Part shown: positions 2,720-38,409 of the stretch, piece by piece
How positions within the stretch are numbered: the stretch's first letter is position 1
Layout of the letters: the number at the start of each line of letters is the position of its first letter
Virus record (IMG/VR): IMGVR_UViG_3300037245_001071
Span: 1 to 57,744 of that record
DNA: 57,744 nucleotides
DNA from: a virus
Reading direction: 5' to 3' (one strand)
Notes under the pieces: generated by a model
Told to the model about the DNA's origin: nothing
What the model saw: the letters and a program-made list of their open reading frames with translations, nothing else
The model's database searches: none
Made by a program: the position numbers and the translations under genes

Positions 2720-4851
2720 TGTTAGAACAATCAATAAAAAAAGTATTAGAGTCTATTTCTTTTAATACGGATTATTTGAGCCCGTCTGAATGGATTGAAA
2801 AAAATAGATACATACAGGAACATGTAAGCGAGCGCATGTTTGGAAAATTCGATTGGTCAAATGTTCCTTATATGAAGCAAATAACCGACCATTTAAGCCA
2901 ATATGATCCGGTTACTCACATTGCATTAATGAAAGGTGTAAGGATTGGCGGTACTTTTGCATTGGTCCATAATGGAGTTCCTTATATCATGAGTGAACGC
3001 CCTACTAACATAATGCTTTTATCTGCAAATGATACATTAGCTACAAGTACATTAAAAGGTGTTGATGATGGTATTGATGGTTGTAATATCCGTCATTTAG
3101 TTGGTAAAACCTCAGGAGCAAGAAGTAAATCAACGGGAGATACTTTAGAGCAAAAAATATTTAACGGTGGTTATGAGTTGTTTAATTTTGGCGGTCAAAG
3201 CATTAAGAATATGCGACAAAAAACAGCCGGTTTTGTTGCGGCTGATGAGCTAGACGCTTTTAAGGGTATTGATAAAATAGGAGGTAGCTTTTTAAAAGCC
3301 ATGGAGGATAGGGCCAGAAGTTTCGGGGAGGCAAAGAAAATAGTATATATTAGTTCGCCTTTATTGTTGATAAGTAGTCTTATTTACAAACTATATTTAC
3401 AAGGAAATCAAAATGTTTATTATTTACCGTGCCCTCAATGTGGTGAATATATTGAATTAGTTTGGAATGAAAGAAACATAAATAATACTCGTTATGGGGT
3501 TGTATTTGATGTGAGAAATGGGGAGGTAATAGAAAAAAGCGTAAGGTACCGGTGTGGAAAGTGTGAAAATGAGTTCTTTGAAAAGAAATACAAGCGCGAT
3601 ATGCTTAATAATGGCTATTGGAAAGAATCTATGGAACGTGAGAATAAACGTTTTGTAAGCTATCGCATTTCTGCATTATACGCACCTCCTACAATGGATA
3701 ATTGGTATGATTTTGCAAGGGATTATCAGGAAGCATTTCCGAGAGGTGGTACAAAAGATGATGCAGCATATCAGACATTTGAAAACTCTATATTAGGTTG
3801 GCCATACAAGCCAATAGGATATGTTTTAAAAACAACCGAATTACAAAAGAATAGAAGAGACTATAAAATAGGTGATTGTCCTTTTGAACTATCTAAAAAA
3901 GATAATAACGGGGAGATTGTAATAATAACTTTAGCTGCAGATTGCAATGGTTACGATTCGGACCCCGACTATGGAGACGATGCACGTATAGATTATGAGA
4001 TTTTGGGGCATTCAGAAAAACAAGTTACATACTCAGCAGATGCCGGAAGTTGTGGAACCTTCATTCCAAAAATAGAACTACGAGCGTTAAAAAAAGAGGG
4101 TGTTGATATTGGAAAATTAGAAAGAGCCAGGAAAAAGTACAGCTATAAGTTAGATGTTGAAAATTCAGTATGGGACCTACTCGAAGAAAAAATAAAACAA
4201 ACGTTTGGTACTCATGAAAGAAGAATTGATGTAATTGCAATTGATGTGGGCGGTAAGTTTGGCGAGTATGGAATGGAGTTCTGCAAGAAAATGATAAACA
4301 TGGGATATAATGTCCTTCCAATAAAAGGAGCAAATAAAGAAATATTTACAGGTAAGGAAAAAAATGAAACTGCTAGGATGTATCAGATGTCAGAAGATGG
4401 AGAGAAATTTTTAGTTAATGTGAATGTAATTAAAGACAATCTAGCAAAATACATTTTACTTAAAGATTACATTGATAAGGATGGACAATTACACCAACCT
4501 GAGCATTATTTAAACTTTCCGGAATATGACCCAAAAGCTAAAAAGTACACTTATAGAAACTATTTTGCACATTACGAAAGCGAAAGCAGAAAAGAGAAAA
4601 AAGCCGAGGGTATGCAGACTAGATATTTTTGGGAAAAGAAAAGACCCGACTCTCAGAATCACTATTTAGATACAGCTGTTTATAATCAGTTTATTCCTAT
4701 TTATCATGCTGATTTGATATGTAAAGCCGCTAATGATGCTAAGTTGGCGAATGGGAAAAAGATGTATTCTGATAAAATAGAGATTACATGGGAAAACACC
4801 TGCAGGTTAATTAAAGAATGGTATGCTAATAATAATTTACAAATGAGTTAA
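2719..4851 (+). CDS. terL: Terminase large subunit (lambda gpA-like packaging ATPase/nuclease)
   Basis: The 710 residues are typical of the GpA family. The ATPase region has a deviant Walker A (MKGVRIGGTF, about 71-80, comparable to the non-classical P-loop of lambda gpA) and a Walker B at D176-E177 (GFVAADELDAF). A zinc-ribbon insertion has cysteine pairs at 238/241 and 279/282. The C-terminal part should be the RNase H-like nuclease that cuts concatemers; acidic clusters such as AADCNG fit. It forms the motor with the portal. The start overlaps the integrase stop by one base, and a strong terminator follows at 4932. Confidence 0.93.
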   Translation: MLEQSIKKVLESISFNTDYLSPSEWIEKNRYIQEHVSERMFGKFDWSNVPYMKQITDHLSQYDPVTHIALMKGVRIGGTFALVHNGVPYIMSERPTNIMLLSANDTLATSTLKGVDDGIDGCNIRHLVGKTSGARSKSTGDTLEQKIFNGGYELFNFGGQSIKNMRQKTAGFVAADELDAFKGIDKIGGSFLKAMEDRARSFGEAKKIVYISSPLLLISSLIYKLYLQGNQNVYYLPCPQCGEYIELVWNERNINNTRYGVVFDVRNGEVIEKSVRYRCGKCENEFFEKKYKRDMLNNGYWKESMERENKRFVSYRISALYAPPTMDNWYDFARDYQEAFPRGGTKDDAAYQTFENSILGWPYKPIGYVLKTTELQKNRRDYKIGDCPFELSKKDNNGEIVIITLAADCNGYDSDPDYGDDARIDYEILGHSEKQVTYSADAGSCGTFIPKIELRALKKEGVDIGKLERARKKYSYKLDVENSVWDLLEEKIKQTFGTHERRIDVIAIDVGGKFGEYGMEFCKKMINMGYNVLPIKGANKEIFTGKEKNETARMYQMSEDGEKFLVNVNVIKDNLAKYILLKDYIDKDGQLHQPEHYLNFPEYDPKAKKYTYRNYFAHYESESRKEKKAEGMQTRYFWEKKRPDSQNHYLDTAVYNQFIPIYHADLICKAANDAKLANGKKMYSDKIEITWENTCRLIKEWYANNNLQMS

Positions 4852-32288: not shown

Positions 32289-32312
32289 AGAAGTTTTTCA
32301 TGTTGTGTTGAG

Positions 32313-32342
32313 GTCCTGCAATTTCGGTTGCGGGGCTTTTTT
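32313..32342 (+). terminator. Rho-independent terminator of the late operon
   Basis: GTCCTGCAA (32313-32321) pairs with TTGCGGGGC (32328-32336) around a 6-base loop, with six Ts after. It ends the late operon just before the RNA gene. Confidence 0.85.
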
Positions 32343-32370: not shown

Positions 32371-32375
32371 CAAAG

Positions 32376-32602
32376 TATTCATTGACATTATTAGTAAAAC
32401 AATTTGGACGCGGGTTTGATCCCCGCCATCTCCACAACACAGTTATAAAGTAAGAGGTTGCCAACAACTCTTTAACCTGGCAAAAGGGGATGACTGACTT
32501 AGACAGGTTGCAAGTATGAATAATTGAGAGTACAAAACAATAACTAACAAAACAATAACACACGATTTTGCACCGCTAAGAGCAGTTGCATAATCAAGAA
32601 TT
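32376..32602 (+). ncRNA. ssrA: Circularly permuted tmRNA-like RNA
   Basis: The 3' half comes first: GGAC then a T arm with stem GCGGG/CCCGC (32410-32414, 32422-32426), a 7-base loop, the 3' acceptor strand CATCTCC (32427-32433) and A at the discriminator position. After a 51-base spacer comes the 5' half: acceptor strand GGGGATG (32486-32492), then TTAGACAGG, close to the tmRNA signature TTCGACaGG. The strands pair over seven bases with a G-U at the third pair, the alanine identity element. AGGTTG (32505-32510) also pairs with CAATTT (32400-32405), placing helix P2 exactly next to the T arm as in E. coli. A tag-like frame ends DFAPLRAVA-stop (32564-32593). Pseudoknots are reduced or absent. 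It has its own promoter and terminator. CCA is not encoded. Confidence 0.75.
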
Positions 32603-32626
32603 AGCCCCACTTTACGGGGCTTTTTT
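32603..32626 (+). terminator. Rho-independent terminator of the tmRNA-like gene
   Basis: AGCCCC (32603-32608) pairs with GGGGCT (32616-32621), loop of 7 bases, six Ts. It lies ten bases after the stop of the tag-like frame. Confidence 0.85.
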
Positions 32627-32658
32627 CGTTTATAATAAATAAAAATCATTAGTTTTGC

Positions 32659-37527: not shown

Positions 37528-38409
37528 ATGACTAAAATACAATGGACTGACGAATCTTGGAATCCAATAATAGGATGTGAACCAATAAGCCCAGGATGTA
37601 AAAACTGCTATGCTGAAAAGATGGCTTTTAGATTATTACATATGCCTAAAACATCATATTATATGCATGTAGTAAAAGATAATGGTAAGGTGTTGGAAGA
37701 TTTTAGGTATATAAAAGAATGGAACGGAAAAACACACTTTGCAGAATCCCAACTAGAAAAGCCTTTTAAGTGGAAAAAGCCACGAATGATATTTGTTTGC
37801 TCAATGGGTGATTTGTTTCATGAATCAGTACCTTTTGAATGGATAGATAAAGTTTGGTTTGTAATAGCACAAAACCCACAACACACGTTTCAGATTTTGA
37901 CAAAAAGACCCGAAAGAATGAAAGATTATTTTATTCATATGGGTAGAGAAGCGCAGCAAAATGATGAAGAGTGTATTGCTGGTAAATGGTTAAATCCATT
38001 AAAATATTTTGATGTTTTACCTAACTTATGGCTAGGCGTAACTACCGAAAACCAAGAACAAGCAAATAAACGTATTCCTATTTTGTGTCAAATTCCAGCG
38101 GCAAAACGGTTTATTAGTTGCGAACCTTTACTTAGTGATATTGATTTGCAATACCCAGAAGAACATTTTCCAGACGGACCGCAAATGTGTTGTTCAGGTT
38201 CAGAATGCGGCTGTTTAGGTTTACCAACAGAACCACCAGTAATAAATCATTTAGATTGGGTAATTGCAGGACCAGAAACTGGACACAAAGCCCGACCAAT
38301 GAAAAAAGAATGGATTCGAAATATTTATAGTCAATGTAAAGCTGCAAAAGTTCCTTTCTTTGACAAGAAAAACACTTTAGGATTAGATTTAACTCAAATA
38401 CCTGAATAA
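37528..38409 (+). CDS. DUF5131 (phage Gp37/Gp68) protein
   Basis: The opening IQWTDESWNPIIGC followed by SPGCKNCYAEKMA gives three cysteines of a probable metal cluster, and WLGVTTENQEQANKRIPIL and WVIAGPETGHKARPM are characteristic family blocks. The family has a radical-SAM-like cysteine cluster at the N-terminus, but no reaction is known to me. 293 residues, complete. Stop overlaps the next start (TAATG). Confidence 0.85.
   Translation: MTKIQWTDESWNPIIGCEPISPGCKNCYAEKMAFRLLHMPKTSYYMHVVKDNGKVLEDFRYIKEWNGKTHFAESQLEKPFKWKKPRMIFVCSMGDLFHESVPFEWIDKVWFVIAQNPQHTFQILTKRPERMKDYFIHMGREAQQNDEECIAGKWLNPLKYFDVLPNLWLGVTTENQEQANKRIPILCQIPAAKRFISCEPLLSDIDLQYPEEHFPDGPQMCCSGSECGCLGLPTEPPVINHLDWVIAGPETGHKARPMKKEWIRNIYSQCKAAKVPFFDKKNTLGLDLTQIPE

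Follow-up and report, generated by a model that had tools for sequence, protein, structure and literature searches.

A probable circularly permuted tmRNA gene with a short coding piece in a 57,744-bp phage record

The stretch of DNA analysed here (the window) is a complete IMG/VR virus record of 57,744 bp, with 32% G+C and identical ends of 16 bp. Between the terminator of its late structural and lysis genes and its early genes lies a locus in which a tRNA-like 3' acceptor half is encoded upstream of a 5' coding half as a single unit, the order opposite to that of standard Bacteroidota tmRNA. Its features are as follows, the 5' boundary of the acceptor piece (32375) being placed from helix P2c.

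32310-32342, plus strand: terminator of the upstream late (structural/lysis) operon, from a terminator scan
32375-32434, plus strand: putative acceptor piece (tRNA-like 3' half), with the 3' strands of P2c, P2b and P2a, the T arm, the 3' acceptor strand and the discriminator; RF04321 matches from 32377 and model R1 from 32380
32410-32426, plus strand: T arm GCGGG-TTTGATC-CCCGC, whose T-loop U 32417 covaries with A 32497
32427-32433, plus strand: acceptor stem 3' strand CATCTCC, bearing U70 of G3-U70 (RF04321 match)
32434, plus strand: discriminator A
32435-32485, plus strand: intervening sequence of 51 nt, expected to be removed (sequence reading and comparison with the related phage G002)
32486-32492, plus strand: 5' acceptor strand GGGGATG, pairing over seven bases with CATCTCC, including G3-U70
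32486-32602, plus strand: putative coding piece (5' half), with the 5' acceptor strand, the D-loop-like segment, the 5' strands of P2a, P2b and P2c and the tag frame (RF04321 and R1; predicted 3' end)
32505-32510, plus strand: P2a 5' strand AGGTTG, pairing with CAATTT at 32400-32405
32519-32524, plus strand: P2b 5' strand AATAAT, pairing with ATTATT at 32387-32392
32528-32533, plus strand: P2c 5' strand GAGTAC, pairing with GTATTC at 32375-32380, with a compensatory change in the related phage
32546-32593, plus strand: tag reading frame NKTITHDFAPLRAVA-stop, with putative resume codon AAC 32546-32548 and stop TAA 32591-32593
32603-32627, plus strand: intrinsic terminator AGCCCCACTTTACGGGGCT plus T run (32603-32621 before the T run), strong in the terminator scan

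The T arm, acceptor strands, signature, helix P2 and tag-like frame that an earlier note had described from the letters alone are all present and in place, as are the unit's own strong terminator and its position between the late operon, whose terminator lies upstream, and the early genes on the other side. The early region also encodes a DUF5131 protein (37528-38409, 272.8 bits). The tRNA-like domain is complete, with a 7-bp acceptor stem containing G3-U70, the T arm and the D-loop/T-loop contact, and the coding piece carries the D-loop-like signature TTAGACAGG. CAA is encoded where CCA would stand, so that CCA addition would be needed. The intervening sequence contains a short conserved stretch, TTATAAAGYAAG..GGTTRCCAACAACT, common to the window and G002. 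A stem-loop adjoining the coding piece (window 32444-32482, TTGCCA..TGGCAA) is also conserved in the contigs L029 and L121 (in L121 as TTACCA..TGGTAA), which is unusual for a segment presumed to be discarded.

The Rfam covariance model for permuted tmRNA, RF04321, matched positions 32377-32593 along its full length with 55.6 bits, 8.6 bits above the curated threshold of 47 (E 3.6e-8 over the whole window), a significant result for the check that had been proposed. A second model, R1, built from 19 relatives with the window left out, gave a single match in the window, from 32380 (63.5 bits, E 2e-14). For the bare geometry, namely a T arm and a seven-pair acceptor stem with G3-U70 in permuted order, the window gives one instance and 200 shuffles give zero per strand. 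Among the lineage-specific models, the beta_tmRNA model RF01850 matched only part of the gene with 38.4 bits, below its curated 84 bits, and neither alpha_tmRNA (RF01849) nor cyano_tmRNA (RF01851) matched the window at the gathering threshold or as best of clan at E up to 10. ARAGORN at default settings, likewise proposed as a check, made no call on the window gene; it also missed the G002 gene and misread the tags of several relatives, so that phage tmRNAs are probably under-counted.

A terminase search returned seven contigs, the sole long one being G002 (IMGVR_UViG_3300020171_000037, 52.9 kb, terminase 62% identical), in which RF04321 scores 64.3 bits at the equivalent position, again between late and early modules. 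In G002, relative to the window, C-G and G-C are exchanged in T-stem pairs 2 and 3, acceptor pair 5 is U-G instead of A-U, P2c is GAGAAC/GTTCTT instead of GAGTAC/GTATTC, and the D-loop/T-loop contact has also changed in a compensatory manner. Pairing is retained in the relative, with changes in the acceptor stem, T stem and P2c, the earlier note having proposed such a comparison for the acceptor and P2 stems; both halves are present and conserved, and together with the significant covariance match this runs counter to each of the refutations that the note had envisaged. No tmRNA was detected in the other terminase, RecT and baseplate relatives, but those from the terminase and baseplate searches are fragmentary and may not span the locus. 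In a BLASTN comparison of the window tmRNA with phages, only the T arm matched, the hits being unrelated tmRNAs and tRNAs of phages. Pattern searches of IMG/VR identified further permuted genes, and 16 of the 18 records tested scored above the RF04321 threshold.

The pairing between the two pieces was evaluated by scoring every coding strand both with its own acceptor strand and with those of other sequences over 20,000 permutations, a procedure that ignores shared ancestry. With that limit, own partners outscored cross partners across the relatives for P2a (11.7 vs 6.8 +/- 0.6; 0/20,000 permutations), P2b (13.2 vs 11.6 +/- 0.5; 20/20,000), P2c (15.2 vs 11.2 +/- 0.5; 0/20,000) and the whole connector (-9.3 vs -5.8 kcal/mol; 0/20,000). 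In the window alone P2a scores 11 with its own partner and 8 with the best cross partner, P2b is individually not significant, and both P2b and P2c are unexceptional for AT-rich sequence; the conservation of the connector helix P2 is seen by covariation across the relatives. The contact between D-loop G12 and the T-loop C, equivalent to G19-C56 of tRNA, is G/C in 50 of the distinct tmRNAs and A/U in the other 5, without exception (p 3e-7), the window being A/U. Pair counts over the 19 relatives (94.7% of cells paired vs 46-57% when slid) are partly circular, given that the relatives were mostly selected by T-stem, acceptor-stem and G3-U70 filters, and among these counts only P2 is independent of selection; P2a-c and the tertiary contact played no part in the filters. 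Matches to two covariance models, the syntenic gene in a related phage and the covariation seen both in helices and in a tertiary contact uphold the central claim of the earlier note, and we consider it very likely that window positions 32375-32627 (plus strand) hold a complete, circularly permuted, phage-borne tmRNA (ssrA) gene.

The note had left the resume codon unclear, and comparison with relatives now places it. Aligning the frames of the window (KTIT|NKTITHDFAPLRAVA), L051 (KTIT|GKVISLNNAPLRAVA), L162 (DNNNVFSIAPLRATA), L241 (DNKNVFSIAPLRATA), G002 (GKTIEFSKPSLRMVA) and Maribacter phage Panino (GKVMNVSFAPTVRQFA), with L029 also used, settles the predicted resume codon as AAC 32546-32548 and the tag as 15 codons; GGC, GGT, GGA or GAC stands at this position in the relatives. 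A tag start at ACA (THDF...) was considered and dropped after alignment of more relatives. The window frame ends DFAPLRAVA-TAA, and the C-terminus APLRA[VT]A is common to the window, L051, L162 and L241. The proposed resemblance to alphaproteobacterial tags did not hold up: the aligned sister tags start GK- or DN-, most with Gly, in the tag-start context AACTGGC, which is the pattern of standard Bacteroidota genes with GExNYALAA tags and not the alphaproteobacterial AND-, and the resume codon at nt 61 is unlike that of alpha and beta permuted RNAs. A standard-order tmRNA in L185 (3292-3659, minus strand) has a tag, GKVISLPRFKSVRLAA, close to that of the permuted L051 gene, and its D-loop/T-loop pair is A/U as in the window; it is possibly an unpermuted sister.

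The coding piece appears to be reduced. Counted from the mature 5' end, the distance to the resume codon is 59-64 nt in 18 permuted phage genes, the window (61) among them; it is 80-87 nt for those permuted genes of the set that are alpha-like, beta-like or GAYN-tagged and 95-97 nt for standard Bacteroidota genes. In the window only 12 nt separate P2c from the resume codon and 9 nt the stop from the terminator, so that PK1 and PK2 do not fit; judged from these spacings and the offsets, PK1 is absent from the coding piece. Pseudoknots PK1 and PK2 flanking the tag are typical of described two-piece forms (PMC3985003), and are neither universal nor defining in tmRNA. By its tag and layout the gene is a member of a set of phage permuted tmRNAs with Gly-, Asp- or Asn-initial tags, within which two of its features are derived, GACTTA in place of GGTTTT in the D-loop-like segment and AAC in place of GGC at the resume codon, so that function may have been lost in part. 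A different group of phage permuted genes (L186, L193, L211, L230, L235, L242, L252 and L259) has tags GAYNAPLALAA or GTYN(A/T)PLALAA and a spacer of about 20 nt where measured, with the L186 resume codon at 87.

The promoter that the note had assigned to the unit could not be substantiated. A sigma-70 promoter scan at the locus gave nothing above chance, and the Bacteroidota -7 motif TAnnTTTG is imperfect at the window gene (TAATTTTA); it is perfect at the corresponding site in G002 and enriched upstream of the relatives' genes (7/27 vs 1.6 expected).

Descriptions of permuted tmRNA exist for three bacterial lineages, for mitochondria and for some phages, the two-piece forms of alphaproteobacteria, betaproteobacteria and cyanobacteria reportedly by Keiler in 2000 and by Sharkady and Williams in 2004. 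The sequences behind RF04321 are of alpha, beta and cyano origin (PMC11915505). The window shares with this type the gene order, the tRNA-like domain, the acceptor stem with G3-U70, P2 and a tag frame with stop, but it encodes no CCA, has no predicted PK1 or PK2 in the coding piece, places the resume codon about 20-26 nt closer to the 5' end and belongs with Asn/Gly/Asp-initial tags. The standard Bacteroidota tmRNAs of L070, L071, L205 and L257, with GExNYALAA tags, and that of Cellulophaga phage phi38:1 (standard form, 87.6 bits) share with the window or its relatives GGGG..TGACTGGTTTTGACAG, GTTTGGAC preceding the T arm, the resume context AACTGGC and the Gly start found in most relatives; unlike the window, they are unpermuted, have PK1 and place the resume codon at 95-97. 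The crAss-like Cellulophaga phage phi14:2 (W06, 4031-4502) shows a match of the standard tmRNA type that, at 46 bits, falls one bit short of the RF00023 threshold.

A permuted form had been thought new to phages of this group, and that novelty stands only in part. Panino (PP540027.1, 27557-27889), an isolate with a Flavobacteriaceae host, already carries an annotated tmRNA gene that ARAGORN calls permuted (tmRNA*), while the record annotation is simply SsrA and the permutation went unremarked in the Panino paper (PMC11590407). The Panino gene has the permuted order, the connector helix and a resume codon at nt 61 in common with the window, but Panino is a podovirus of 77 kb with 20 tRNAs, its tmRNA lying within the tRNA array. 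With phi38:1 standard and Panino permuted, both forms occur in Bacteroidota phages. Two-piece tmRNAs of phages were already known: a study whose main text names no Bacteroidota gives 53 ARAGORN calls, of which 50 are marine or aquatic (PMC9004378); the OM43 phage Melnitz and other marine phages in that study likewise carry a permuted tmRNA, but the Melnitz-type ssrA is an alphaproteobacterial-type gene linked to a glutamine riboswitch. A search of freely available papers, covering main texts, returned no paper on a permuted tmRNA of Bacteroidota phages or on this pseudoknot-poor form.

Two unusual arrangements were encountered among the phage contigs. In L053 (3480-3844, minus strand), L254 (4512-4957, minus strand) and L268 (4366-4924, plus strand), an intact tRNA-Ala(TGC) lies inside the intervening sequence of a permuted tmRNA, as reported in PMC11915505 for one nominally archaeal MAG sequence. 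In L216 (583-1122) and L243 (its mirror), a complete standard tmRNA is immediately preceded by an additional T arm and acceptor strand (TACCTCC), for which reason ARAGORN reports a permuted as well as a standard gene there; the additional segment may be an attachment-site remnant or a tRNA, or may show how permutation starts.

The nearest portal, terminase and baseplate relatives among named phages belong mostly to Flavobacterium and Cellulophaga phages (25-32% identity), which indirectly supports the assignment of the window to a Bacteroidota phage. Alignment of the terminase against genome contigs gave no relative, and a DNA pattern for the permuted gene (spacers of about 64-94 nt, one exact signature) matched none of 84,980 genomes vs several viral contigs; with both searches empty, no prophage or host was identified, and tblastn on four other permuted-tmRNA contigs pointed to no host. 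The phage permuted set, if it is a lineage of its own, would probably lie outside bacterial chromosomes.

Where the gene came from and whether it works as a tmRNA can be read in other ways. It could be an alphaproteobacterial (or beta or cyano) permuted ssrA acquired horizontally, as proposed for Melnitz, given that most known phage cases of permuted ssrA are alpha-, gamma- or cyano-type genes of marine phages (PMC9004378) and that RF01850 gives its partial, sub-threshold match. We consider this unlikely: the tags are Gly/Asp/Asn-initial rather than AND-, the resume offset is 61 rather than 80-87, CCA is not encoded, and in a tree of tRNA-like cores the AND-tag permuted genes form a separate cluster (support 99/100) that excludes the window, although this tree, with 69 columns, is too short for the deeper origin and neither joins nor splits the phage permuted genes as one clade.

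The RNA might instead be a decoy whose chargeable tRNA-like domain titrates SmpB or blocks host trans-translation, with the tag frame unused or decaying. The tmRNA-like-domain-only RNA of mycobacteriophage DS6A inhibits host tmRNA (PMC4131195 and PMC11915505), and the derived resume codon and D-loop segment and the missing pseudoknots of the window fit such a role, but the shared tag frame and C-terminus in L051, L162 and L241 and the conserved resume offset make it distinctly unlikely. Very improbable is an attachment site or captured fragment, in which the 3' half of a host ssrA serves as attP and the remainder is fortuitous: tmRNA genes are common integration sites and the window has a tyrosine integrase at 1913-2719, but the tag frame and the two halves all exist and covary, about 27-30 kb separate the locus from the integrase in either direction, the gene has its own terminator, and G002 retains it whole at the equivalent position despite an integrase only 25% identical to that of the window. 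Chance resemblance or a pseudogene, for which the ARAGORN miss might speak, is scarcely credible against two covariance matches, the leave-out test, the shuffles, synteny and covariation.

Taking the locus as a working permuted tmRNA gene, we infer a mechanism from established two-piece tmRNA biology. A single transcript would comprise the acceptor piece, the 51-nt spacer and the coding piece; host RNase P would cleave before GGGG (32486), tRNase Z or exonucleases would trim the spacer back to A32434, and the host CCA-adding enzyme would complete the 3' end. The two pieces, held together by the acceptor stem and the long connector helix (P2a-c), would be charged by host AlaRS through G3-U70 and delivered to stalled ribosomes by host SmpB, no SmpB being encoded in the 57,744-bp record. 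Translation would resume at AAC, and A-NKTITHDFAPLRAVA would be added before release. The most likely use would be ribosome recycling during infection under phage control, independently of the host ssrA.

As to origin, we tentatively propose, as a possible rather than a probable reading, that phages of Bacteroidota and their kin carry a permuted tmRNA lineage of their own, a fresh permutation of a Bacteroidota-type ssrA independent of those in alpha, beta and cyano lineages, with roughly 60 nt left in the acceptor piece, roughly 115 nt in the coding piece and no pseudoknot, several members having phage-specific tags ending LRAVA or LRATA. If this is true, the phages would contribute a further permuted tmRNA lineage with an architecture of its own, its PK1-less form would test the minimal size of a tag-coding tmRNA, and the question would be raised of what benefit a phage draws from its own ribosome-rescue RNA and tags.
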